From positions 1 to 59,580 of the forward strand of contig CABMIB010000095.1 of assembly GCA_902386135.1 (NCBI GenBank): DNA of 59,580 nucleotides, in the 5' to 3' direction. Below the pieces are notes generated by a model. The model searched no databases. It saw only the letters and a list, made by a program, of their open reading frames with translations, and was not told where the DNA came from. The position numbers were made by a program, and so were the translations under genes. The DNA is from an uncultured archaeon (GTDB lineage Archaea > Halobacteriota > Methanosarcinia > Methanosarcinales > Methanoperedenaceae). Below are positions 15,861 through 52,405 of the stretch, in pieces (within the stretch, counting starts at the first letter, position 1; each line of letters begins with the position of its first letter).

Positions 15861-15910
15861 TATTATATACTTTATCCCAAGAATCTATATATACTATATA
15901 GAATCAGTAT
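15861..15910 (-). promoter_or_regulatory. Phosphate-type promoter element of pstS
   Basis: Read toward pstS the element runs ATACTGATTCTATATAG, TATATATAGATTC, TTGGGATAAAG, then the TATA box AAGTATATAATA. It lies 34-83 bases ahead of the pstS ATG, so the TATA box is placed correctly for a transcript carrying the GGTGA site. The part upstream of the TATA box matches elements at nine other genes in the window and is probably a binding site for the phosphate regulator. Confidence 0.8.
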
Positions 15911-17420: not shown

Positions 17421-17453
17421 TTCTATCACCCGATCAAAATCCTACTCATAAAG

Positions 17454-17500
17454 CTATATAATTTATCATAATAATCTATATATACTATAAAATATCAGTA
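17454..17500 (-). promoter_or_regulatory. Phosphate-type promoter element of the psiE operon
   Basis: On the coding strand: TACTGATATTTTATAG, TATATATAGATTATT, ATGATAAATTATATAG. The TATA box AAATTATATAG is 34-43 bases ahead of the 28-residue frame. Strong match to the elements at 18001 and 59251. Confidence 0.8.
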
Positions 17501-17971: not shown

Positions 17972-18000
17972 TCTTTCACCGTATCAAGATTCATCTCACA

Positions 18001-18050
18001 GAGTTATATAATTTATCACAATAATCTATATATACTAAATAAAATCAGTA
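18001..18050 (-). promoter_or_regulatory. Phosphate-type promoter element of tiny-protein operon 1
   Basis: On the coding strand: CTACTGATTTTATTTAG, TATATATAGATTATTG, TGATAAATTATATAACTC. It is almost identical to the element at 59251-59300 ahead of the paralogous gene. TATA box AAATTATATAAC is about 30-40 bases ahead of ATG 17971. Confidence 0.82.
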
Positions 18051-37656: not shown

Positions 37657-37906
37657 GATTTTTTCGATGGCGCTTCGGGTCGCAGATGTTCCCCGGTGAA
37701 GTTCTATTCTTCAGTTGAACAGATTTATTCTTTTTAGGAACCCTCGATATAATCCTTTTTTCAGGGACTCTATACGCCCATCTGCTGGAACTGCTTATAT
37801 ACAATATGTCCTCACGGGGACTCCTTTCAATAAAGAGAACATCTCCTTCCAGTAGTTCACCTGATTTGAGTTTAAATTTTACTGTATCTCCTTCAGTGTA
37901 TTTCAC
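37619..37906 (-). CDS. SH3-like small protein (cassette copy 1)
   Basis: 95 residues from GTG 37906 with GGGGTGA ahead of it. The conserved core KYTEGDTVKFKLKSGELLEG, VLFIER and WAYRVPEKRIISRVPKKNKS suggests a small beta-barrel (SH3/KOW-like) fold, possibly nucleic-acid binding. The C-terminus runs out of the conserved part into the overlapping zinc-ribbon gene. In copy 2 the same core is fused in frame to an N-terminal segment that here is a separate 28-codon frame ending at TGA (37919-38005). Confidence 0.65.
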   Translation of the reverse strand: MKYTEGDTVKFKLKSGELLEGDVLFIERSPREDILYISSSSRWAYRVPEKRIISRVPKKNKSVQLKNRTSPGNICDPKRHRKNHETERTVAQTLP

Positions 37907-37918
37907 ATATTCACCCCA

Positions 37919-38005
37919 TCATTCTTTTCCAGGGACATCTACGCTGAAAAAAAAGAGATGATGAGGAGATTTCTCCTCATAAGATTTTTCGTTATTTATC
38001 TTCAT
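37919..38005 (-). CDS. 28-residue upstream frame of cassette copy 1
   Basis: MKINNEKSYEEKSPHHLFFF then SVDVPGKE and TGA. This equals the N-terminus of the fused protein at 40970-41305, where the corresponding codon is CGA. One substitution (or its reversal) therefore separates a two-gene and a one-gene form. AAGGAGGGATG precedes the ATG. A GAGGAGA...TCTCCTC inverted repeat lies within it. Confidence 0.5.
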   Translation of the reverse strand: MKINNEKSYEEKSPHHLFFFSVDVPGKE

Positions 38006-38075
38006 GGATCATCCCTCCTTTCCTTATGTCCGGAAGCAAAACCTGATGATTTTGCCTGTTATAGTCGTTTTATAA

Positions 38076-38125
38076 AGTTTATATAACTTATCAAAATAAT
38101 CTATATAATCTATATAAAATCAATA
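38076..38125 (-). promoter_or_regulatory. Phosphate-type promoter element of cassette copy 1
   Basis: On the coding strand: TATTGATTTTATATAG, ATTATATAGATTATTT, TGATAAGTTATATAAAC. Almost identical with 41376-41425 ahead of cassette copy 2, so promoter and genes were duplicated together. Confidence 0.78.
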
Positions 38126-38203
38126 TTTGCTGAAGTTATCTGAGAATGGCAGGAATCTTCAGTGCAGAGTAATTGCATCTTTTTCTCAGTAATTTTTTAA
38201 AGC

Positions 38204-38965
38204 TCACAGGAGAAATTTAATCAACACAAACATCAGGTCGCCATAGAATGCAGCCATGAAAAACCCCATAGTTATGGAAATCATAAACGGCAGGCCCGGT
38301 GTAACCCAGACCTCATCTTTAATTAAGCCCTTTTCTGACAGAGCTTTAAGCTCCCTGATTTTTTTCTCATTAATTTCTACACCGCCCCATTTAAAACGGG
38401 ATCGAACCCTGCCATCCACCACTTCGAAAGCTTGAACCAGCCGGATATGTTTACCTGCAAGCTTTGAAATCTTGGTTTTATAACCCATGAAAATGTACAC
38501 GGGATTATCAATACGCCAACCCATTACCGATATATTATATGCCATCAGCCCGATGGGAACGACAATTGTCAGCAGGGCTGCATTGCCAAGTATGCTCAAA
38601 GCAAAGATATCATATAGCGGCTTATTCAATGGAAGGGCATATCCGAATGCTTTGAATGCAGGATAGGTCGGGAGGATTATCGAAAGGACGATAAACGCTT
38701 TGGCATCAGCCCCGCCGAATGCGCCGAGCTGAAAAAGGATATAAGCAAGTATGAAGATGAATCCTGCTGAAATAAATATGGGAAAGAGGTAGGATATACC
38801 ATAATCAGAGACATCATACAGAACCAAGAAAGAGCCGCCAGAGAGCATCATTAACCATATATAGTTGGTCACGCTGCGCTTTTTAATATCCGAATAACAT
38901 GCGTAAATCAAAAACGGCGTGCAGAATAAGATCTTTAAAATTTCGAGCATGTTCTCTTCCATCAA
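38204..38965 (-). CDS. Prepilin/preflagellin peptidase (FlaK/PibD family)
   Basis: 253 residues, six membrane helices. Aspartyl protease that removes class III signal peptides. The two catalytic Asp lie in YACYSDIKKRSVTNY and FGGADAKAF, the exact family motifs. A soluble insert (about 155-215) precedes the last helix pair, as in methanogen FlaK. Three Met codons near the start (38965, 38962, 38950) are possible starts. It should process the PstS-pilin proteins at 44365 and 48842 and the pilin-like protein at 57139. Operon with the winged-helix gene upstream, under a phosphate-type element. Confidence 0.92.
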   Translation of the reverse strand: MMEENMLEILKILFCTPFLIYACYSDIKKRSVTNYIWLMMLSGGSFLVLYDVSDYGISYLFPIFISAGFIFILAYILFQLGAFGGADAKAFIVLSIILPTYPAFKAFGYALPLNKPLYDIFALSILGNAALLTIVVPIGLMAYNISVMGWRIDNPVYIFMGYKTKISKLAGKHIRLVQAFEVVDGRVRSRFKWGGVEINEKKIRELKALSEKGLIKDEVWVTPGLPFMISITMGFFMAAFYGDLMFVLIKFLL

Positions 38966-38994
38966 ATCCTCGCGACAGATATGTTATTGTAACG

Positions 38995-39264
38995 TTATTG
39001 TAACTGAAGAGTGATTTCTTTTGCTTTTTCCAGAATAGTTCTTCCTTTTTCGGTTATCACATATTTATCCTGCCTGTTCTCCAGGAATCCATTTTCCAGG
39101 AGTACAGCAAGATATTTTTCTGTGAGCTGAAAGTTCAGATTCGCACCGGAGACAATGGCTGTTTTGCTTGTTCCTTCTTTCGCAACTTCAAGAATATCGA
39201 TAATTATGTCAAGCCTTCCCCGCTTATTTTCAGACTTCGGCTGTTCAATCTTGTTCATCTTCAT
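38995..39264 (-). CDS. Winged-helix DNA-binding protein
   Basis: 89 residues, typical archaeal stand-alone winged helix: RLDIIIDILEVAKEGTSKTAI, YLAVLLENGFLENRQDKYVITEKGRTIL. It lies 29 bases ahead of the prepilin peptidase in the same direction and under its own phosphate-type element, so it may regulate the pilus/phosphate genes or itself. Confidence 0.85.
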   Translation of the reverse strand: MKMNKIEQPKSENKRGRLDIIIDILEVAKEGTSKTAIVSGANLNFQLTEKYLAVLLENGFLENRQDKYVITEKGRTILEKAKEITLQLQ

Positions 39265-39336
39265 GCGTTGTTCCTCCTTTTCTTATGTCCGGAAGTAAAG
39301 CCATCTGGTTTTGCATGGGCTGTTCAAGTTACAAAA

Positions 39337-39391
39337 GTAATATAATTTATCAAAATAGTCTATATAGCCCTATATAGGGAAAATCAATATT
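39337..39391 (-). promoter_or_regulatory. Phosphate-type promoter element of the prepilin peptidase operon
   Basis: On the coding strand: ATTGATTTTCCCTATATAGG, GCTATATAGACTATTT, TGATAAATTATATTAC. It overlaps the last codons of arsC by eight bases. It links pilin processing to the same signal as pstS. Confidence 0.75.
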
Positions 39392-39797
39392 GGCTGAATT
39401 CTTCCTGTATCCGCTGCTTTATCCCGTCCCTGACCTTCCTGAACGCAGAAAGTATCTCGTTTTCAGACCCTCTTGCCTCTGCCGGGTCATTAAAACTCCA
39501 ATGTAAACGGCGTGCTTTGCCCGGGAAAACAGGGCAGGTTTCCCTGGCGGCATCGCATGTGGTTATAACGAAATCAAAATTCTTCCACTGAAACTCCTCT
39601 ACCGATTTTGACCTGTGCCCCGAAATATCAATGCCGATTTCTGCCATGACCTTTATAGCCATCGGATTTACGACCGAAGGTCTTGTTCCCGCGCTAAATA
39701 CCTCAAACTTATCGCCCATGAGATGCCGCAGAATCCCTTCAGCCATCTGGGAACGGCAGGAGTTTTCCGTGCAGAGGAATAACACTTTTTTCTTCAT
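39384..39797 (-). CDS. arsC: Arsenate reductase (low-molecular-weight phosphatase type)
   Basis: 137 residues. P-loop Cys in [15 protein letters not shown] (Cys9 or nearby nucleophile motif [12 protein letters not shown]), and the reactive Cys pair in [15 protein letters not shown] fits the thioredoxin-coupled arsenate reductase rather than a plain tyrosine phosphatase. Reduces arsenate, a phosphate mimic imported by Pst-type systems. Convenient in a phosphate-scavenging region. Single gene; no arsenite pump in the window. Confidence 0.93.
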
Positions 39798-39899
39798 CGT
39801 TTCTCGCAGTTGATATTTTTAATAATCTGGCGGCAGCTTTAAATAAGCTTCGGTCCCCAGGAGCCCATCCAATAATTCCAACATCTAAACGACTGGAGC

Positions 39900-39970
39900 A
39901 TAAATGAGCCACAGAGGCGCGCAGGTACAGAGATTTTTAAATACGTCTCTGTGTTCTCCGCGGTTTTAAC
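39900..39970. repeat. CACAGAG/CTCTGTG palindromic repeat
   Basis: GAGCCACAGAGGCGCGCAGG with GTACAGAG and the opposing ACGTCTCTGTGTTCTCCGCGG form a foldable imperfect inverted repeat around ATTTTTAAAT. The same kind as 5668-5745 and 46985-47110. Confidence 0.65.
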
Positions 39971-39985
39971 TTTTCGGATTGGTTC

Positions 39986-40429
39986 TTAGTTTTTTCCAGA
40001 GACAGGGCTTTTTAAAATCTCTAACCCGGTTACTTTTGAGATTTCATCGAATCTCTTATCTGCTGAGGCGATCTTGTCCGCTCCATTCGTCACGGCAATG
40101 CCAGCTATAAGTACATCAAGAGCGTTAACAGATTTTCCCATAGTTAAGAGAGTTCCCATTATTTCGCTTGATTTTTCTGCAGCTCTAAGATCAAAATCTA
40201 AAACCGGTGTTTCAGAAAAAAATCTTCTGAAAAACCTCTCCTCTTTTTTTACTTTTTTATGTTTTACACCGGACATTATTTCGTGAAATGTTACTACAGT
40301 AGTTGCAACATCCGAATCAAAATCAAGAGCAATATCAAGATCATCAATTTCCTTAATTTCAAAAGCCCTCAATGTTTCTTTCATCCCCATAAAAAAATCA
40401 ATGAGATAAGTTGTATCAAGAACGATCAT
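39986..40429 (-). CDS. vapC: PIN domain toxin (VapC-like)
   Basis: 147 residues. PIN ribonuclease with acidic residues in VLDTTYLIDFF, TFHEIMSGV, NALDVLIAGIA and ASADKRFDEI. Overlaps the antitoxin gene by four bases (ATGA), the standard coupling. Should cleave RNA when antitoxin is degraded. Confidence 0.92.
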   Translation of the reverse strand: MIVLDTTYLIDFFMGMKETLRAFEIKEIDDLDIALDFDSDVATTVVTFHEIMSGVKHKKVKKEERFFRRFFSETPVLDFDLRAAEKSSEIMGTLLTMGKSVNALDVLIAGIAVTNGADKIASADKRFDEISKVTGLEILKSPVSGKN

Positions 40430-40647
40430 ATAGTTCTAAGCCTCGCAGATTCTCTTATTTTCTCACAGTCTTCTTTTATCTCTATTATAGCTTTACTATC
40501 CTTCAAGCCCCCGAAATAATTTTTTAGATTTGGTTTTCGTTTTTTTGTCAGCTTATATATCACATCACTGAAGCTTTCATTCTCTTTTTTTAAGCTCATA
40601 AGGACATCGTATACCTCTTCTCTTATTGATATTGTCTTTGTTGCCAT
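40426..40647 (-). CDS. vapB: VapB-type antitoxin (DUF217/RHH-like)
   Basis: 73 residues from ATG 40647 (MATKTISIREEVYDVLMSLK), a ribbon-helix-helix start typical of archaeal VapB (DUF217). An upstream in-frame ATG at 40665 adds six residues. The C-terminal half (FGGLKDSKAIIEIKEDCEKI) should wrap the toxin. Overlaps vapC by four bases. Confidence 0.9.
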   Translation of the reverse strand: MATKTISIREEVYDVLMSLKKENESFSDVIYKLTKKRKPNLKNYFGGLKDSKAIIEIKEDCEKIRESARLRTI

Positions 40648-40709
40648 AATAATCTGTGTATGCATACACAGATATATAGCTTATGATAGCCTGATTGGCG
40701 CAAGAAACA

Positions 40710-40952
40710 TTATTGTTTCGAGGCTATCGGTGACAGGTTCTTAGCGGATGGGTTCGGTCCCCAGGCAGCGGGGAGTGATTCTTTTCTATCACTTCTCAGT
40801 GCAATTTCCCTGTGCTGCACTGCCCTGGTCTTGGGTATTTCAAATACGGCTTTGCACGACCAGCATTTGTATTTTTTAGTGGATTTGGTGCGGTATATGC
40901 TGAGCTTGTTGCATTTCGGACAGCATTTGCGTAACCGTTCTTTCAGTTCCAT
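40710..40952 (-). CDS. Zinc-ribbon protein (cassette copy 2)
   Basis: 80 residues: MELKERLRKCCPKCNKLSIY then KYKCWSCKAVFEIPKTRAVQ. Paralogue of 37492-37656, with 26 extra C-terminal residues from loss of the stop. Follows the SH3-like copy 2 gene in the same direction, 17 bases away. Confidence 0.72.
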   Translation of the reverse strand: MELKERLRKCCPKCNKLSIYRTKSTKKYKCWSCKAVFEIPKTRAVQHREIALRSDRKESLPAAWGPNPSAKNLSPIASKQ

Positions 40953-40969
40953 GGTTTTTTAAAGGCGCT

Positions 40970-41305
40970 TCAGGTTGCGAATGTTTCCCCCGGTGAAGTT
41001 CTATTCTTCAGTTTGATAGATTTATTCTTTTTAGGAACTCTCGATATGATCCTTTTCTCAGGGACTTTATACGCCCATTTGTTGGAACTATTTATATACA
41101 ATACGTCCTCACGGGAACTCCTTTCAATAAAGAGAACGTCTCCTTTCAGTAGTTCACCCGATTTGAGTTTAAATTTTACTGTGTCTCCTTCGGTGTATTT
41201 CACACATTCACCCCATCGTTCTTTTCCAGGGACATCCTGCGCTGAAAAAAAGAGATGATGAGGAGATTTCTCCTCATGAGATTTGTTTTCGTTATATATC
41301 TTCAT
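40970..41305 (-). CDS. SH3-like small protein (cassette copy 2, fused form)
   Basis: 111 residues. N-terminal 35 residues (KIYNENKSHEEKSPHHLFF...) match the separate upstream frame of copy 1. The rest (KYTEGDTVKFKLKSGELLKG to PEKRIISRVPKKNKS) is the shared core. AAAGGAGGGATG lies just ahead of ATG 41305. A GTG at 41200, preceded by GGGGTGA, could give the short form internally, so both products may exist. Confidence 0.7.
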   Translation of the reverse strand: MKIYNENKSHEEKSPHHLFFSAQDVPGKERWGECVKYTEGDTVKFKLKSGELLKGDVLFIERSSREDVLYINSSNKWAYKVPEKRIISRVPKKNKSIKLKNRTSPGETFAT

Positions 41306-41375
41306 GGATCATCCCTCCTTTCCTTATGTCCGGAAGCAGAACCTGATGATTTTGCCTGTTATATTGATTCTATTA

Positions 41376-41425
41376 AGTTTATATAATTTATCAAAATAAT
41401 CTATATAATCTATATAAAATCAATA
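41376..41425 (-). promoter_or_regulatory. Phosphate-type promoter element of cassette copy 2
   Basis: TATTGATTTTATATAG, ATTATATAGATTATTT, TGATAAATTATATAAAC on the coding strand; about 70 bases ahead of ATG 41305. Differs from copy 1 at only a few positions. Confidence 0.78.
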
Positions 41426-41503
41426 TTTGCTGAAGTTAGTCTAACAATAGTAAAGCTCTTGAATTTCTGTAAGTAAACCGCCAAAAATTCTAACCTGTTA
41501 AGA

Positions 41504-41653
41504 TTTTGGTCGTGTACCTCAATAACTGGAAACCTGCGATTGTAAAAGTTACACTAGTTCATCGACTTAAGATTTGCACGTCGGATAACCTACCCAATTT
41601 CCTATTGTAACTTTTTACATTGGTATTTCAATCATCGACGTATACGACCAAAA
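41504..41653. repeat. 150-bp foldback element
   Basis: Outer arms TTTTGGTCGTGTAC and GTATACGACCAAAA, inner arms TGTAAAAGTTACA and TGTAACTTTTTACA, roughly 55-base arms with mismatches. No coding capacity. Looks like a miniature inverted-repeat element; an IS630-type transposase remnant lies 0.6 kb downstream. Confidence 0.6.
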
Positions 41654-41673
41654 AAATAAAAAATGTATTAACT

Positions 41674-42156
41674 TCAGACCAATGCTGCCGTTATACCCAG
41701 TACGCCTGACTGAATGATGATGGCAGTTGTTAATGTTACCCCAGCCATCGCAAGTGCAGCAGCGACATTTCCTTTCTTTAGTTCCTCGAATAGAGGGATT
41801 CCAGGAGTCAGTTTATCGATTACTTTCAGCGCAATATAGATAGCAGCTACTGCAAATATAATCCCAAGTATCAATTGAACAACGCCTGCTGCTAACGCAA
41901 CAAAATCCCCTGCAAGAGCTTTTGATAATCCTGAGGAAATCCCTGCAAGTCCTGATTGTATCACAATACCTATTGCAATAAATATTGATGCGATAAGAAT
42001 GCCTACCGCAACATTGCCTTTAGCCAATTCCTTTTGTTCATCCATTTTAGTTATTTTTCCAAATACAGAAAAACCAATATACAATGCAACTACCGCAAGT
42101 ATAATGGCTACAACCAATTGAATAATCCCTGTTCCTATACCTACTATGCTTACCAT
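41674..42156 (-). CDS. Membrane protein with two DUF350-like repeats
   Basis: 160 residues, four membrane helices in two similar halves: GTGIIQLVVAIILAVVALYIGF...AKGNVAVGILIASIFIAIGIVIQSG and AAGVVQLILGIIFAVAAIYIAL...KKGNVAAALAMAGVTLTTAIIIQSG. DUF350 proteins are unassigned membrane proteins. Starts ATG 42156 with GGTGAAAAA upstream. Confidence 0.82.
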   Translation of the reverse strand: MVSIVGIGTGIIQLVVAIILAVVALYIGFSVFGKITKMDEQKELAKGNVAVGILIASIFIAIGIVIQSGLAGISSGLSKALAGDFVALAAGVVQLILGIIFAVAAIYIALKVIDKLTPGIPLFEELKKGNVAAALAMAGVTLTTAIIIQSGVLGITAALV

Positions 42157-42417
42157 TTTTTCACCTTGCGCTTAAAAAGCGCAGGTCTTTATATGTTACA
42201 GAGGAATATAAAATTAATGGGATACCATATCTTAACCGATGACAAATGGAGCAGAGTAATGAGGTATGTGCGAAAGCAACTATTAAGCATAGAGAAGCGA
42301 TTGAGGTTGGTAATAAACACAGTTGTAGATTGTCAAAGTTGGTTGATTGCCAACCTCAATGATATAACTACAGAGTGGATAATAGTTTTTTCGGTCACTA
42401 TCATTTAATGAGATTGG

Positions 42418-42612
42418 TTGTGCAGGTTGTACGTTTTCCCGAGGAAGAACCGATTGAATCCTATAGAACACATATGGAAATGGCTAAAAGGAGAAGTGGC
42501 GGCAAATAGGACTTATTCTGATATAGAACCATTAAAGCAAGGGTGCATAGAGAAGCTATCTTCATTCACTTTTGAGGATGCACTTAGAATCTCTAGGTTA
42601 AAGTTAGGATAA
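42418..42612 (+). pseudogene. Remnant of an IS630-type transposase
   Basis: 64 codons holding the C-terminal DDE signature of IS630 transposases, LNPIEHIWKWLKGEVAANRT, with the final acidic residue in NPIEH. The upstream catalytic parts are absent or unreadable, though plus-strand sequence from about 42190 may be decayed transposase. Not functional. Confidence 0.72.
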
Positions 42613-42641
42613 AGAGGACAGATTTTTGGTGACCTACTTAT

Positions 42642-42836
42642 TTGTCAGCTATTAAGGCTTACCTGCTTGCGCTGTGGTATAGCCTGGTCAGTGTCAAGGA
42701 TACAGGGAAGGATGTGATCGAGGCTGCAAGGCTGTTTTTCCTTGCTAACCTGTATTCGCAGAACGTCAAGCGGCTTCTTAATAACGAAACCGCTGCTCTG
42801 AATAAGAGTCTATCGGCAGGTTCCAGCAAACCTTGA
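42642..42836 (+). pseudogene. Orphan fragment, helical, unknown origin
   Basis: A 64-codon open frame with rich GC third positions, YLLALWYSLVSVKDTGKDVI and FFLANLYSQNVKRLLNNE. No ribosome binding site; bordered by the IS630 remnant. It reads like a piece of a larger protein left by transposition. I do not recognise the family. Confidence 0.3.
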
Positions 42837-42893
42837 CTGAAAGTCTCAAGCGCTGTCCGGATCAGGAACCGCGCGGGCTTCGGCGGTACTTAT

Positions 42894-43139
42894 TTATTCA
42901 TTGTATGCGGGCTTGATAATACGGAAATACTGATCTGGTGTGAGTATTTTAAGGTTGGAAAGGTTGTTGTTTAATTTATTGCCATCTTTGTGATGGACTA
43001 TATAGCAGCAGAAAGGTAGTGGATGGCGTTTTTTGTTGTATAGACTATTGAAGGCGATTTTTCGATGAACCAGTTGATCTGTACCTTTGTAGCGGAGATA
43101 TCCGTTTCTATCAATGTACGTATTCGGCAATGATTTCAC
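42894..43139 (-). CDS. Small HNH endonuclease-like protein
   Basis: 81 residues. HNH signature IVHHKDGNKLNNNLSNLKIL after an RDGYLRYK-like beta segment (DRNGYLRYKG). Resembles the free-standing HNH proteins linked with mobile elements and phages. Lies in a transposon-rich stretch. GGTGA precedes ATG 43139. Confidence 0.8.
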   Translation of the reverse strand: MKSLPNTYIDRNGYLRYKGTDQLVHRKIAFNSLYNKKRHPLPFCCYIVHHKDGNKLNNNLSNLKILTPDQYFRIIKPAYNE

Positions 43140-43179
43140 CTTGCCTTTTATAGTTATCCAATTTCATTTTCTAAAATCA

Positions 43180-43252
43180 AACGGACTTCAAATCTTACTT
43201 CTGATTTAATAAATTTAAATATTTTCTATAGAGAATATATAGATGAATTGTT
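43180..43252. repeat. 75-bp repeat, copy 1
   Basis: ACTTCAAATCTTACTTCTGA then TTTAATAAATTTAAATATTT then TCTATAGAGAATATATAGAT. It is about 80 percent like 45711-45785. Here it abuts a truncated zinc-ribbon start (KQRLHKPFRRK), so it marks the break point of cassette copy 3. Confidence 0.6.
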
Positions 43253-43335
43253 ATTTCCTGCGAAATGGTTTATGCAGCCGTTGTTTCATGATTTTTCCAG
43301 AGGCGCTTCATATCGCAGATGTTCCCCGGCGAAGT

Positions 43336-43560
43336 TCAATTCCTCAGTCGGGCAGATTTATTCTTTTTAGGAACCTTCGATATGATCCTTTTTTCCGGGA
43401 TTCTATACGCCCTTCTGTTATAACCGTTTATGTACAATATGTTCTCCCGGAAGCTCTTTTCGATAAAGAGAACGTCTCCTTCCTGTATTTCACCTAATTT
43501 GAGCCTGAATTTTACAGTGTCTCCTGTGAAATATTTCATCGAACCTGCTCTTTTATACAT
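43336..43560 (-). CDS. SH3-like small protein (cassette copy 3)
   Basis: 74 residues (67 from ATG 43539). MKYFTGDTVKFRLKLGEIQEG, VLFIEKS and YRIPEKRIISKVPKKNKSAR match copies 1 and 2. It overlaps the end of the 76-residue gene upstream by eight bases. Its downstream zinc-ribbon partner is cut off after about 12 codons by the 75-bp repeat. Confidence 0.65.
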   Translation of the reverse strand: MYKRAGSMKYFTGDTVKFRLKLGEIQEGDVLFIEKSFRENILYINGYNRRAYRIPEKRIISKVPKKNKSARLRN

Positions 43561-44364: not shown

Positions 44365-45492
44365 TTACGGGCTGAAGTATCCTGCCTTCTGTACTGCGTT
44401 CTGGCCGTCAGAACCGAGCATGTACTGGAGGAATGCCTGGATTGCGCCTGTGGGTGTGCCCTGGGTGTAGTAGTAGAGGTCTCTGGAGAGGCCGTTGGCA
44501 CTGGCGCTTGCTGCCTGGCTTGCCTTGTCGTATGGGCCGCCTACATTCTTGCTGCCTGAACTGGCTGCAGTTCCTTCCTGGGTTGTGGCAATTACATTGG
44601 CATTGGCGTTCTGTCCAGTTGAAGTGAATCCAACATCAATAAGTCCGAAGCATGCCTGTGTTGCAGTGCATGCCCCCATGGCTGCCTGAATTTGTTCATT
44701 GCTAGGTTCGCCAATGAATGTTACACCCGCTCCTGTCGGGGGAGAGAAGACTGAATTGACGTAGTTCGGGTTGTTCAGCCATTTCATGAATGTGTCTTGG
44801 GTTCCTGATGAGTCAGAGCGATAATAGATTGTCTGTGGGGTATTATAGAGTGGTATTGCAGTTCCGCTCAGATATAATGCTTTAAGGTCGCTGTACATTA
44901 TTGACCCATTAGTAAGAGCTGTTGGTAGTGTAGTGGCAACATTACCGATATCTATAGGTTTAGCATTGACGCCGGTTCCAAAGGTTGCATTGTTACCATT
45001 GTAAGCCAGGACGACCATGCTTGTTCCTATCTTGGTCTCCCATACTTTAGCGCTCTTTCCACCGAGCTGGATAACTGCATCTGCTCTTCCTGGAAGTGTT
45101 ACGCCGTTCTGTACTTCTGTTCCAACATGCCACTGCTCAGAGCTTGCGCCTATATCAGTGATGGGTGATGCTGTTGTCCATGCAGTGTACCTGCCGAGTC
45201 CAGAGCCACCACCATTGGATGAGACGCTATACTGTGGGTTAGATGCCATGAATGCCGGGCCTGCAATCAGATCAACAGGCAGTATTGTTGTGCTGCCGAC
45301 TATAGTGATCTGGCCCTGGACTGATGCTGTCTTGCTATCTAACATTGCCTTCGACGATCCCTGCGAGTGACTGACCAGTATGCCTATACCCGCTGCTGCT
45401 ACTGCTGCAACCACGATCAAAATCAGTGTTGCAATAGCAGGTGATACTGCTCTGGCGTCATGCAAAAACTGCTTTATATTTCCTTTATTCAT
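44365..45492 (-). CDS. PstS-type phosphate-binding protein with type IV pilin N-terminus (1)
   Basis: 375 residues. Instead of a lipobox it begins with a class III signal: basic KQFLHDARAVSPAIATLILI then a hydrophobic helix VVAAVAAAGIGILV, the archaeal pilin pattern. From about 60 on it is a PstS-like binding fold: QITIVGSTTILPVDLIA, SSNGGGSGLGRYTA, DIGASSEQWH, TSMVVLAYN, YYRSDSSGTQDTFMKWL, GLIDVGFTS and a C-terminal SDGQNAVQKAGYF typical of PstS. Predicted to be processed by prepilin peptidase and carried on a pilus-like surface structure. No own permeases nearby. Low cysteine (one CTATQAC pair). Confidence 0.88.
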   Translation of the reverse strand: MNKGNIKQFLHDARAVSPAIATLILIVVAAVAAAGIGILVSHSQGSSKAMLDSKTASVQGQITIVGSTTILPVDLIAGPAFMASNPQYSVSSNGGGSGLGRYTAWTTASPITDIGASSEQWHVGTEVQNGVTLPGRADAVIQLGGKSAKVWETKIGTSMVVLAYNGNNATFGTGVNAKPIDIGNVATTLPTALTNGSIMYSDLKALYLSGTAIPLYNTPQTIYYRSDSSGTQDTFMKWLNNPNYVNSVFSPPTGAGVTFIGEPSNEQIQAAMGACTATQACFGLIDVGFTSTGQNANANVIATTQEGTAASSGSKNVGGPYDKASQAASASANGLSRDLYYYTQGTPTGAIQAFLQYMLGSDGQNAVQKAGYFSP

Positions 45493-45659
45493 ATGTTTTT
45501 ATCCCAGAATGTCATATATTTATCCTGACATTCCACTCTCAAATAAATCTTAATTACTATTTTAAAGCAACCAAAATAAAATATATTCAACTATATGCTT
45601 CTATAGAGTTTCAATAGATTTTTTAATCGTTTATAGTTCTTGTTTTTAAAAATAAAGAG

Positions 45660-45722
45660 AATAGGAAGCCCAAAAAAGGACTAAAGGAATGTTCATTACC
45701 AAATGAAACTATGGGCTTCAAG
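45660..45722 (+). ncRNA. Possible partial relative of the 240-bp RNA repeats
   Basis: AGGAAGCCCA and TATGGGCTTCA lie about 40 bases apart and can pair over eight bases. The 3' arm ATGGGCTTCA is the same as in the three tandem units at 47.3-47.9 kb, and a CTATAGAG promoter-like motif precedes it. The first hairpin of those units is missing. Weak candidate. Confidence 0.35.
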
Positions 45723-45993: not shown

Positions 45994-46317
45994 ATGGAAG
46001 ATATAGAAACTGAAGATATAGAAACCGCAATAATGAGCACAAAAGGACAGGTTATCATACCGGCAAGACTGAGAAAAAAGTATGGGCTTAAAAAAGGCAA
46101 AAAGATTGTGTTTATTGAGGAACCAGGATATATCAAGGTAATGCCCCCCACAGACCTGAGGTCACTCTGTGGCTCGTGGCCCGATCTTGACGTGGATACT
46201 TTGACAAAGGAAATAATAGAAGATAGAGAGCGTGATGCAGAGATAGAAAGAGAAAGAGAGAGGCAAATAGAGGGGCAAATAGAAAAGGCGGCTAAGAAGA
46301 ACTTGAAGAAGAAGTGA
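45994..46317 (+). CDS. AbrB/MazE-type antitoxin
   Basis: 107 residues. After an acidic lead (EDIETEDIETAIM), a swapped-hairpin AbrB domain STKGQVIIPARLRKKYGLKKG with IVFIEEPGYIKVMP. The tail is an unusually charged helix EREREREQ-like run (about 75-107). An ATG at 46036 (MSTKGQVI) would be the classic AbrB start. Three bases ahead of the PIN gene: a toxin-antitoxin pair. Confidence 0.85.
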   Translation: MEDIETEDIETAIMSTKGQVIIPARLRKKYGLKKGKKIVFIEEPGYIKVMPPTDLRSLCGSWPDLDVDTLTKEIIEDRERDAEIERERERQIEGQIEKAAKKNLKKK

Positions 46318-46321
46318 TTTG

Positions 46322-46744
46322 ATGAACCGGATTTTAATAGATACCATGCACCTGGGGGGACTTTTAAAAGACGATACTTATCATGATTTAGCCGGTGCAA
46401 TAAGTGACGGTGATATTGAGGCGATATGCTCGGTTATCTCCCTTTTAGAATTAACCAAAAGACTGGGTATGAGGGATGAAGAACGAATGCGTAAAATCAG
46501 GCAAGAACTATTATCTTCCAGATTGATTTTTGTAAATGTAACCCGTACAATTGCAATTCAAGCCGGTGAGTTGCGCCTGAGATATGATATCCCCACAGCA
46601 GATTCGCTGATCGCTGCGACCGGCATAGCTGGAAATACATCAAATATCCTGACGGACGATACCCGTCATTTCGGGCCCATTAAAAATCTGATGAAAATAA
46701 AAAACCTTAAACAGGTTTTAGAAATGATAAAGTATGGAAGATAA
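46322..46744 (+). CDS. PIN domain toxin (VapC-like)
   Basis: 140 residues from ATG 46322 (TTG 46319 possible). PIN acidic residues: RILIDTMHLGGLL, VISLLELTKRLG, PTADSLIAATGIA and ILTDDTRHFG. Partner of the AbrB antitoxin just upstream. Its 3' end overlaps by 11 bases a truncated HAD gene. Confidence 0.87.
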   Translation: MNRILIDTMHLGGLLKDDTYHDLAGAISDGDIEAICSVISLLELTKRLGMRDEERMRKIRQELLSSRLIFVNVTRTIAIQAGELRLRYDIPTADSLIAATGIAGNTSNILTDDTRHFGPIKNLMKIKNLKQVLEMIKYGR

Positions 46745-46835: not shown

Positions 46836-47250
46836 CCTTCTTTTAAACTTTTAACTGTTAAAACGATGTATTTTTTAAGAGGGTGGCATTTTTCCAAAAA
46901 AAGCCGATCTCGTTTTTTTCAAAAAAGCACTGGATACCATATGGAATTTTCTGCAATGGAAAGACTTAGAGTCTATCCGAAAAGTTAAAACTACAGAGAG
47001 ATACAGATATTTTTAAACACATCTCTGTGTTCTCTGTGCCTCAGTGGCAAGTTTTTTGTAAGCCACCGAGACGCAGAGGCACAGAGACTCTCTCAATGAG
47101 CCTCAGTGGCAAATTCTATCCTCAAAAATTTTTGGTCGGTGATGCCGACCGGCATGCCCATCGTATAATCGTCTGTCTTCAAATCGAAGTTTGGCGGACA
47201 CGGATTTATAGCATCACCAGAGCATACCAATATTATAAACTATTTTAGTA
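46836..47250. repeat. Repeat-rich spacer with CACAGAG palindromes
   Basis: No gene. 46985-47110 holds CTACAGAGAGATACAGATAT, ACATCTCTGTGTTCTCTGTG, CCTCAGTGGCAAG and a second, partly inverted block GAGACGCAGAGGCACAGAGA...GCCTCAGTGGCAAA. 47131-47155 has GGTCGGTGATGCCGACC, a short perfect hairpin. Relatives at 5668 and 39900. Confidence 0.6.
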
Positions 47251-47257
47251 TAATCCT

Positions 47258-47412
47258 CATAAACTATATAGAGTCCTATAGTCTATTTTTATTCTCCGGA
47301 ACATGAAAACGGTGCCCCGTAATAGGAGTTTTGGCCGGATCGAGGGCACCGTCTCATGGTTAATGAAGCCCGGCACAAGACAAAAAACTCAAGATATATT
47401 ATGGGCTTCATA
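47258..47412 (+). ncRNA. Structured RNA repeat unit 1
   Basis: First of three units with an exact 240-base period. Promoter-like CATAAACTATATAGAGTCCT and CTATTTTTATTC (47258-47294) is followed at TATA-to-start distance by stem 1 ACGGTGCCC/GGGCACCGT (47309-47317 with 47344-47352) and stem 2 ATGAAGCCC/GGGCTTCAT (47363-47371 with 47403-47411). No reading frame is conserved among the units. Predicted to be a small RNA of about 110 bases. Confidence 0.7.
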
Positions 47413-47497
47413 TTCTTTCTCCGGATTGTGGTTTGGCAGCCTGTTGCACCGAGCCGCCAGGCCACTGTAATTCCAGAAACTATTTCAGGATAATCAT

Positions 47498-47654
47498 CAT
47501 AGACTATATAGAATCATATAATCTATATTTATTCTTCAGAACATGAAAACGGTGCCTCGTACTGGAGATTCGTGGGGGGGAATTGAGGCACCGTTTCATG
47601 GTCGATGAAGCCCTGCACTGAAGGAAAAAAGCAAGATGTGTTATGGGCTTCATA
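47498..47654 (+). ncRNA. Structured RNA repeat unit 2
   Basis: Promoter CATAGACTATATAGAATCAT and CTATATTTATTC, then stem 1 ACGGTGCCTC/GAGGCACCGT (47549-47558 with 47585-47594): relative to unit 1 the C-G pair at the base of the loop became T-A, a compensatory pair change. Stem 2 ATGAAGCCC/GGGCTTCAT is at 47605-47613 with 47645-47653. The loop of stem 1 contains a G7 run. Confidence 0.72.
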
Positions 47655-47737
47655 TTCTTCTCGGCTTGTGGTTTGGCGGCGCATTGCAAAGAGCCACCAG
47701 TTTATTCTAATTTCCGAAACTATTTCAGGGTAACCCT

Positions 47738-47877
47738 CATAGACTATATAGAATAATATACTCTATTTTTACCTTCAGGAATATGAGGTCCCAGGCTTTC
47801 CGCCCAGGTAATCAGCAGAAAGCCTGGTATGAAGCTCTGTACATGGAAAAAAGTATGGAGACATTATGGGCTTCATG
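47738..47877 (+). ncRNA. Structured RNA repeat unit 3
   Basis: Promoter CATAGACTATATAGAATAAT and CTATTTTTACC, then a stem at the same place but with a wholly different sequence, CCAGGCTTTC/GAAAGCCTGG (47791-47800 with 47818-47827). Stem 2 is ATGAAGCTC/GGGCTTCAT (47829-47837 with 47868-47876), keeping pairing through one G-T wobble. Conservation of shape rather than sequence supports an RNA. Confidence 0.72.
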
Positions 47878-47970
47878 AATCATTGAACATCTTCCTAGAC
47901 AATAAAACCTGCTCAAATAGAGAATATAGAGCTATATAGATGGAGAAAAGTAATCCTGGGAAGATTCGGC

Positions 47971-48841: not shown

Positions 48842-49813
48842 TTAGCTAAACTCCCTCATATAGCTTATGTATCCGTTCTTCTCTATAATATCCTGTCCTT
48901 CAGACGACCTTGCCCACTTTATGAAGGAATCCTCAAGTGAGGGATTACCTCTGGTTACAAAGTAGAGCGGGTGGGCAAGCACTAACGGATAATAGGAGTT
49001 ATTCACGTCACTGCTGATAGCCGCCTGCGTGAAATTGGAGTAGCTATATGGACTTGTGTATATCATTGCCATGTTTTCATTATTAACTAGACCCGCTGTA
49101 TACACATTTTGTCCAAGCTTGTCTGGAGAATCAACATAACTGAATTCTGTAAATCCTATAGAGTCTTGATGGTTTTTCACAGCATCAAGCATTCCGGCGC
49201 TGCCTGTAACCGCAGTAATCGTTGAGCTAATTGAAGGATTCCCAAGATACTTCATAAATGCCTGTTGCGTGCCTGAAGAACCTGTCATTTGATATGCCTT
49301 GCAATTTGGATTTGAGCCGTTGTAATACCCTACGAGGTCATTTTTATTGAAGTTGCTAACAGGGCAGGTCGTAACGTGATTGACTATTACCACAATCCCT
49401 GAAGTACCGAGCTTTTGAACTACCAGGTCCGGGTATTTCCCCATCTCATCAGGAGAAGGCATCCTATCCGAGACTCCTATGTCTGCTATCCCGGTACCAA
49501 CCTCGCCGATGGAGACATTCGAGGTCACATCCATTGTTTCGCTTTCCTGTAACCGGAGAAACACGCCGAGACTCTTATTATTATAAGCTTCCACAAGAGG
49601 CTCCACGGCAGGCATGGCGAGGTCTGAGCTTATAATATTTATCTTCATGGATGTACGATCTGCACTGGTACTCTTGCCTGCCACTTTGTCGGTCTGGGAG
49701 TTCATATCCTGCATCATCTTAGAGAGAAACGCCGCACTTCCCGCCACCACCATAATAAGCATCAGTGAAGCTACCACAGTGGATACAGCGTTTGTGTCTT
49801 TAATAATCTTCAT
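48842..49813 (-). CDS. PstS-type phosphate-binding protein with type IV pilin N-terminus (2)
   Basis: 323 residues. Class III signal: KIIKDTNAVSTVVASLMLIM then VVAGSAAFL. The binding fold follows from about 55: MKINIISSDLAMPAVEPLVE, EVGTGIADIGVSDR, SGIVVIVNHVTT, YQMTGSSGTQQAFMKYLGNP, GFTEFSYVDS, YYPLVLAHPLYFVTRG and GQDIIEKNGYISYM. It is diverged from the 44365 protein but has the same order of parts. Promoter just upstream with CTATAATCTATATAGATAAG and a TATA box. It should be processed by the prepilin peptidase and displayed on the cell surface. Confidence 0.86.
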   Translation of the reverse strand: MKIIKDTNAVSTVVASLMLIMVVAGSAAFLSKMMQDMNSQTDKVAGKSTSADRTSMKINIISSDLAMPAVEPLVEAYNNKSLGVFLRLQESETMDVTSNVSIGEVGTGIADIGVSDRMPSPDEMGKYPDLVVQKLGTSGIVVIVNHVTTCPVSNFNKNDLVGYYNGSNPNCKAYQMTGSSGTQQAFMKYLGNPSISSTITAVTGSAGMLDAVKNHQDSIGFTEFSYVDSPDKLGQNVYTAGLVNNENMAMIYTSPYSYSNFTQAAISSDVNNSYYPLVLAHPLYFVTRGNPSLEDSFIKWARSSEGQDIIEKNGYISYMREFS

Positions 49814-51384: not shown

Positions 51385-51425
51385 TTTTGTATATAGTGTA
51401 TATAATCTATATACTTTTAGAGAAG
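51385..51425 (-). promoter_or_regulatory. Promoter with TATATAGATTATATACACTATATAC core
   Basis: AAAAGTATATAGATTATATA then CACTATATACAAAAAAG on the coding strand of the surface protein. It overlaps the last codons of the AbrB-PhoU gene 51407-52405. Partial match to the phosphate-type core. Confidence 0.5.
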
Positions 51426-52405
51426 TCGATGGCTAACTCGGCGATATTGGCAGCATAGTCCCCGATCCTTTTCACGCTGTCAGCTATGAGCCCTATGGAC
51501 ATGACGGCATCAGGATTCAGAGTTGCTGACGGGTGTCTGGTTCTGCGCAACTCCTCGCCTACTTTTTTATGTTCTTCAATAACCCTGTTTGCAAGCTCTA
51601 CATTGCATTTTGTAAATGAACTGACCGAATCGTTGACCAGTTTATGAGAGACTGTGCCAATTTTAACGAGCTCATCGAGCGTGTTATGAGGAATTTTTTC
51701 CTGTGATTCCAGCATAATGCTGGCGATCTTACCTGCATGGTCCGATACGCGCTCTAACTGGTCGCTTGCCAGCCTGTAGTAGAAGGCACCAGTCAATCCC
51801 AGTTCACTCTTTTCTGATATCCTTGAATGGAGAAGGATATCCATGAACTGTTTTGATATCAATAGATGGAGGCGGTCTATCTCATCGTCCTGCCTTACGA
51901 CTTCAGAAGCGAGGGATACATCCTTTGTATTCATTGCCTTAATAGTGTTGTCAAGCATCCACTGCACTTTTATATGCATGCGCCGGAAACTCATATCGAT
52001 AGGCATATCTCCCGGATTCGAGATATCCTGAATAATCACCTTATCGTGCGTCTCTTCGATGATCTCAATGCCTATCAATTTTTTTACTATAGCTGTTATA
52101 TCTTTTCTCTGCTCCAGTGTGATATTTTTGGCTTTAAGTTCGATCACGCGATACCATGCAACATAGGTTGCTATTATATCTCTTATCAGCGGCTCGCCCA
52201 CCCTTCCATCTATGGTTAAGGTCTTTGGACCCTGAGATGCAAAACCGCCGTTTGAAGTTAAAAGAAGAGTACCGTCTTCCTGCGGATGCATGTGAATAAG
52301 GGAACCGGAAGTTATTCCGGCACTAACAGCCCACTTCTTAGGAAGAGAAACGACAAATGTTGATTTGCCCGTTACCTGAACCTTTCTTATTTCTGCGTTA
52401 ATCAT
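51407..52405 (-). CDS. AbrB-PhoU phosphate regulator (1)
   Basis: 332 residues. N-terminal SpoVT/AbrB-like DNA-binding hairpin RKVQVTGKSTFVVSLPKKWA (about 7-50), an alpha/beta linker, and two PhoU helix bundles from about 130: RQDDEIDRLHLLISKQF, SDQLERVSDHAGKIA, NRVIEEHKKVGEELRR, ADSVKRIGDYAANIAELA. PhoU-type metal motifs are present. This architecture is that of archaeal phosphate-uptake regulators. It is divergent from the pilus ATPase gene and preceded by a phosphate-type element. A piece of this gene lies decayed at 21340-21515. Confidence 0.93.
   Translation of the reverse strand: MINAEIRKVQVTGKSTFVVSLPKKWAVSAGITSGSLIHMHPQEDGTLLLTSNGGFASQGPKTLTIDGRVGEPLIRDIIATYVAWYRVIELKAKNITLEQRKDITAIVKKLIGIEIIEETHDKVIIQDISNPGDMPIDMSFRRMHIKVQWMLDNTIKAMNTKDVSLASEVVRQDDEIDRLHLLISKQFMDILLHSRISEKSELGLTGAFYYRLASDQLERVSDHAGKIASIMLESQEKIPHNTLDELVKIGTVSHKLVNDSVSSFTKCNVELANRVIEEHKKVGEELRRTRHPSATLNPDAVMSIGLIADSVKRIGDYAANIAELAIDFSKSI

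Follow-up and report, generated by a model that had tools for sequence, protein, structure and literature searches.

Tandem hairpin units at a phosphate locus

Contig CABMIB010000095.1, analysed here over positions 1 to 59,580 (the window), belongs to a 3.24-Mb genome of Candidatus Methanoperedens (G000). It encodes PstS-like proteins, a pst transporter operon with PhoU, polyphosphate kinases 1 and 2, an exopolyphosphatase, CHAD and CYTH proteins, and two AbrB-PhoU regulators. It also carries an array of three tandem hairpin units, which very probably represent a novel family of regulatory small RNAs (sRNAs), as judged by comparison with related genomes. An earlier note, made from this sequence alone, had described the three units with an exact 240-base period and two hairpins each. 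A repeat search of the window confirmed them as a block of 125 nt that is repeated three times with start-to-start spacings of 240 and 240. The exact period is limited to the operator/promoter block, whereas the hairpin parts are spaced by 242 and 223. The operator cores begin at 47261, 47501 and 47741.

Each unit consists of an operator/promoter block of ∼56 bp, hairpin 1, hairpin 2 and a pyrimidine-rich tail, and a third hairpin follows except after the last unit. On the plus strand, unit 1 comprises an operator/promoter block at 47236..47291 (AAACTATTTT...ATAAACTATATAGAGTCCTATAGTCTATTTTTA, position-weight score of 65), a hairpin 1 of type A1 with a covarying stem at 47303..47357 (E value 3.4e-21 with R1, the covariance model of the units), and a hairpin 2 with a nearly invariant stem (ATGAAGCCC/GGGCTTCAT) and an A-rich loop at 47363..47411. 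The 3' arm of hairpin 2 and the tail, GGGCTTCATATTCTTTCTCC, cover 47403..47422 and complement an SD-AUG-AAGCCC stretch (SD, Shine-Dalgarno sequence), a presumed target; relatives carry CATATTCCTCC. Unit 2, also on the plus strand, has its operator/promoter block at 47476..47531, placed by the core position and the weight matrix, a type A1 hairpin 1 at 47543..47599 (R1 E value 7.1e-20), and a hairpin 2 at 47605..47653, recognized by stem conservation and folding. In unit 3, again on the plus strand, the block lies at 47716..47771 (same basis as in unit 2) and is followed by a hairpin 1 of type B (CCAGGCTTTC/GAAAGCCTGG) at 47791..47827, which aligns with the right-hand units of three other genomes (G015, G016 and G042), and a hairpin 2 at 47829..47876 with a G-U wobble in its stem (R1 E value 2.1e-13, folding z-score -3.9). 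Both hairpins of the earlier description are thus present in every unit, but it had overlooked the third hairpin, which has the general form TTTGGCGGC...GCCGCCA and lies at 47428..47467 after unit 1 (TTTGGCAGCC...GAGCCGCCAGG) and at 47669..47700 after unit 2. Both copies were identified by their fold and by similarity to the start of a pstS leader on the minus strand, and neither is assigned to a strand. The leader itself, a degenerate fourth unit and a promoter-only site in a relative had escaped notice as well.

The pstS-type 5' leader (GGTGATGC...GTGTCCGCCAAAC...GGCATCACC) is located on the minus strand at 47136..47222 and was detected with a second model, R2 (E value 3.4e-22). It is a conserved, structured element of ∼87 nt which in relatives lies directly upstream of pstS, at the transcript start. 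It is a single-copy element that R2 matched with confidence in eight of the nine genomes that carry the array and in one further genome, G019, and it could be a separate cis-regulatory RNA element. The similarity of the hairpin 3 at 47428..47467 to the leader (shuffle p = 0.013) is no more than suggestive of a copy of the leader start, since part of the likeness is shared promoter sequence. At the right end of the array, a minus-strand block at 47880..47955 that aligns in five genomes contains a promoter-like CTATATAG site (47932-47939) and then a leader-like stretch, without hairpin 3. The degenerate fourth unit, an operator remnant with a GGAAGCCC...GGGCTTC hairpin, lies on the plus strand at 45583..45722, upstream of pstS (fold z-score -1.8).

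Conservation, sub-types and probable strand

The earlier note had proposed a covariance model with relatives as a check on its reading. R1, built from 13 units, found homologous units in eight other genomes; overall, the family is present in 9 of the 31 Methanoperedens genomes, where R1 scored 20 units, between one and four in each genome, with E values down to 3e-21. Several homologous copies in one genome, as expected of sibling sRNAs, are found both here (three) and in relatives. The model detected no units in the 23 further genera that were sampled from the order, and none were found in the searched viral contigs, plasmids and phage records. The window had no Rfam match at the gathering score and chance-level matches alone at a relaxed threshold, and no tRNA or tmRNA was identified. 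Scanning genome contig records for hairpin 2 gave two Methanoperedens-type matches, Candidatus Methanoperedens sp. nzgw23 and uncultured archaeon LFW-24, and 11 bacterial ones. The latter, mostly from Sphingomonadales and with near-constant spacing, were provisionally taken for unrelated sequence.

The plus strands of units 1, 2 and 3 fold with z-scores of -4.4, -5.0 and -3.9, and none of 200 shuffled sequences was equally stable. The stems of the ten A1 units are paired in 94.9% of their cells. Covariation among homologues is visible in hairpin 1, where both partners are substituted in six base pairs; in one instance U-A is replaced by C-G (GGUGCC/GGCACC versus GGCGCC/GGCGCC) and in another A-U by G-C (AUGAAAC versus AUGGAAC). 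The A1 covariation score is 0.178, compared with 0.114 for shuffled alignments (0 of 500 reach it) and at most 0.117 for slid partners; because the units are homologous and also served to derive the structure, we treat this count as supportive and attach no probability to it. Stem 2 is retained in all three units with one wobble, as the note had said, but it carries no covariation evidence: it is the most conserved part of the unit and barely varies, and therefore neither supports nor refutes an RNA.

Three sub-types of hairpin 1 can be distinguished. Type A1 (GGTGCCC/GGGCACC) accounts for the majority of units and usually shows GGA in loop 1. Type A2 (GCGCCCCC, with a CUCUCCC loop on the plus strand) is the first unit in G016, G017, G020 and G021, and the right-hand unit of the array is of type B (CAGGCTTTC/GAAAGCCTG) in the window and in G015, G016 and G042. 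In G020 and G021 a third promoter is followed by a truncated type B start or by no unit. In these alignments the order of sub-types along the array is conserved. From a mixed alignment of all sub-types RNAalifold recovered only five weak stem 1 pairs, and the sub-types therefore had to be split. This distinction also corrects the earlier argument that stem 1 keeps its pairing while its sequence is replaced from unit to unit. The stems of units 1 and 2 are as described, but the comparison of unit 3 with them was wrong as evidence of covariation. We rejected a compensated replacement in unit 3, as type B is a separate hairpin conserved in the right-hand unit of four arrays.

The plus strand is favoured as the transcribed strand, being the more stable one in 14 of the 16 A1 and B units. 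Read on this strand, the tail is an anti-SD/anti-start sequence; read on the minus strand, it contains a Shine-Dalgarno sequence and an ATG (AGGAGGAAT-ATG-AAG-CCC in relatives). We prefer the former reading because masking of the ribosome-binding site (RBS) is a known mode of Methanosarcina sRNAs (PMC6560208), a step that we infer for the present units. Short ATG-led frames of 3 to 55 codons exist on both strands, but neither their length nor their sequence is conserved; small proteins on either strand were accordingly rejected, and the earlier statement that the units share no reading frame was correct. Conserved RNA secondary structure in non-coding sequence, as expected of an archaeal sRNA, is what the units display.

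Functional transcripts from the minus strand seem rather improbable. Bidirectional promoters would in that case produce a leader-like hairpin 3, a Shine-Dalgarno sequence and an ATG, yielding short peptides or attenuator-like leaders (MKP...). This would fit AGGAGG-N3-ATGAAGCCC on the minus strand of several units, the likeness of hairpin 3 to the pstS leader, the conserved minus-facing promoter-like block at the right end and the better minus-strand folding of A2 units, but folding favours the plus strand in A1 and B units and the peptides (3 to 49 amino acids) are not conserved in sequence along their length. The A2 loci that fold better on the minus strand are L019 9815-9922, L017 10467-10578, L018 9729-9840 and L021 8323-8434. 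Most A2 units carry the CUCUCCC loop on the plus strand, a sequence complementary to GGAGA, which forms the loop in some A1 siblings; a kissing interaction or an inverted unit is possible.

Operator sites and genomic context

The note had tied the promoter core to phosphate elements. This link was confirmed. The operator block has the consensus core AAACTATATAGAGTcATATAGTCTATTTTTA, and a weight matrix built from 20 instances gave a score of 65 for unit 1; beyond the array, the top-scoring site reached 3.2. The motif CTATATAG occurs at 13 sites in the window (0.9 expected) and at 55 sites in the 3.24-Mb genome, so that 13 of 55 sites fall on a contig with 1.8% of the DNA (binomial p = 2e-11); leaving out the four sites of the array region, 9 of 51 do (binomial p = 4e-7). 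As in a Pho regulon, the motif is shared with phosphate genes: two pstS genes, ppx and PPK2 each have it 38-90 bp upstream. Sites outside the array, at 15894, 19099, 23654, 25573, 35667, 39360, 39370 and 49851, are upstream of these and other genes. We regard CTATATAG, which overlaps the TATA box, as a candidate Pho box of Methanoperedens. Two promoter-like repeats of almost the same sequence (ATAATTTATCA.AATAATCTATATATACTA) were also seen at 17450-17490 and 18000-18040; they are ∼550 bp apart and precede the pst operon region.

In the window and in relatives, the neighbours of the array include pstS, PhoU and PPK2, and in most relatives the array adjoins pstS divergently. The window encodes on the minus strand a PstS-like phosphate-binding protein at 44365..45492 (PF12849, E value 7.5e-14), a second PstS-like protein at 48842..49813 with a CTATATAG site 38 bp upstream (PF12849, E value 3.9e-4, below the Pfam curated cut-off), and an AbrB-PhoU regulator at 51407..52405 (PF01895) with an orthologue in every array genome. 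The array is present in 9 of 13 genomes with this orthologue and in 0 of 18 without it (Fisher p = 3.5e-5). Among genomes with the orthologue and no array, the contigs of G013 and G022 end at this gene on the array side, and in G023 AbrB-PhoU is in two pieces at contig ends. In G019, pstS, leader and operator abut PhoU with no hairpin unit, an "empty" promoter-only site.

The association with pstS varies. In the window the leader is orphaned, the nearest pstS lying beyond the degenerate unit and a MazE-PIN pair. In G007 (L061 8480-8560) the pstS frame retains only its first codons and a winged-helix-like gene comes next, with leader and array kept, and in G017 leader and pstS are lost from the array's side. 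The hairpin units are still present in all three, where pstS is not directly next to them. The MazE-like and PIN toxin-antitoxin pair occupies 45994-46744, between pstS and the array; in most relatives pstS adjoins the leader. A small winged-helix (HTH_45-like) protein has 15 genome matches, with many paralogues at 37706-43539 and on other G000 contigs.

These contexts bear on whether the units act as DNA. Repeated operators with palindromic spacers could bind PhoU/AbrB and set pstS expression as an enhancer, silencer or decoy, with no functional hairpin RNA. The strongly conserved operator block, its occurrence alone at the pstS promoter of G019 and the position of the arrays next to pstS would agree with this, and palindromic DNA likewise keeps complementarity. 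We consider it unlikely, given the G-U pairs within stems, the lower plus-strand energy in 14 of 16 A1 and B units, the persistence of units where the adjacent pstS was lost, and loop features (GGA in loop 1, the A-run in loop 2) that DNA palindromy would not need. A cis-regulatory leader or terminator of a downstream gene, which the co-directional PPK2 gene after the G015 array might suggest, is very improbable: each unit has its own promoter-like block, and the array is followed by a convergent gene in the window, G007 and G017, so that no downstream gene is common to the arrays. Tandem copies, inverted repeats and changes in copy number are also features of mobile or selfish repeats (MITE, REP), but the restriction to one locus per genome, the conserved sub-type order and the lack of matches in the searched virus contigs, plasmids and phages make such an origin hardly credible.

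Proposed action and relation to known systems

Overall, sequence comparison reveals conserved units with a covarying hairpin 1, a near-invariant hairpin 2 and position-specific sub-types at a pstS/PhoU locus. We assign a probability of about 60% to the reading of the array as tandem sRNA genes of a family restricted to Ca. Methanoperedens, each with one phosphate-type promoter, transcribed from the plus strand and acting in trans. The novel structured sRNA family of the earlier note thus finds support in homologues, stem 1 compensation, the lack of frames, phosphate synteny and operator enrichment, and not in the covariation argument it had itself put forward. We infer phosphate-controlled transcription of each unit and action in trans via loops and tail. 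The unit promoters would be controlled, jointly with the promoters of pstS, ppx and PPK2, by a regulator that responds to phosphate, for which the AbrB-PhoU protein encoded at a distance of 3.5 kb is the most likely candidate, and the plus strand of each unit would give a two-hairpin RNA of roughly 100-130 nt. These sibling RNAs would act on mRNAs, with the purine-rich loops and the pyrimidine tail 3' of hairpin 2 as likely contacts; the tail could pair with the Shine-Dalgarno sequence and start codon (GGAGGAAU-AUG-AAGCCC in relatives), masking the RBS in the manner of Methanosarcina sRNAs. Multiple copies might serve dosage and leave room for targets to diverge.

Several points weigh against this interpretation. 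The A2 units are more stable on the minus strand in four of four cases, and the near-invariance of stem 2 leaves no covariation there to assess. Covariation also arises in DNA inverted repeats, and taken alone it may be compatible with a role as DNA. The units are intact in the window, partly so in G007 and decaying in G017, where the adjacent pstS is gone. The 31 genomes of the genus include incomplete metagenome-assembled genomes. A target search with the unit 1 tail gave one near-complementary start region, C23:17032, in front of an MKK signal-peptide protein; this match was not distinguishable from chance and may be one, because SD-ATG-AAG is a common start.

To our knowledge, archaeal sRNAs with known roles are very few. 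A phosphate-linked array with sub-types and a natural empty site offers a testable system for the origin, duplication and divergence of archaeal nutrient sRNAs, and it also bears on PhoU-type regulation outside haloarchaea. Our literature search found no archaeal tandem sRNA array with one operator per copy and no sRNA described for the anaerobic methane oxidiser Methanoperedens. Only tentatively do we suggest that this may be the first archaeal array of tandem sibling sRNAs with their own phosphate operators and position-fixed sub-types, governing a starvation regulon by masking of starts and paired with a divergent pstS leader from the same promoter region.

Homologous sRNA genes duplicated within one genome are known from bacteria, for example the Neisseria siblings (PMC5362039) and duplicated csrB (PMC6262261). 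Within the same order, sRNA162, sRNA154 and sRNA41 of Methanosarcina mazei act by masking the RBS and the start codon, as we propose for the present units, and are not described as phosphate-linked or tandem (as cited in PMC6560208). In the archaeon Sulfolobus solfataricus, sRNA257 is associated with a putative phosphate transporter; it is not described as an array (as cited in PMC6560208). The closest functional parallel is sRNA132 of Haloferax volcanii, an intergenic, two-stemmed sRNA of 138 nt that is linked to phosphate starvation and the pst operons, is required for rapid phosphate adaptation and has homologues reported in Haloferax only (PMC6560208). It differs from the Methanoperedens units in being a single gene outside the pst locus, with proven expression and predicted binding within ORFs or 3' regions (PMC6560208). 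The two resemble each other, compared by description and with no claim of family membership, in being genus-specific, two-stemmed and phosphate-linked.
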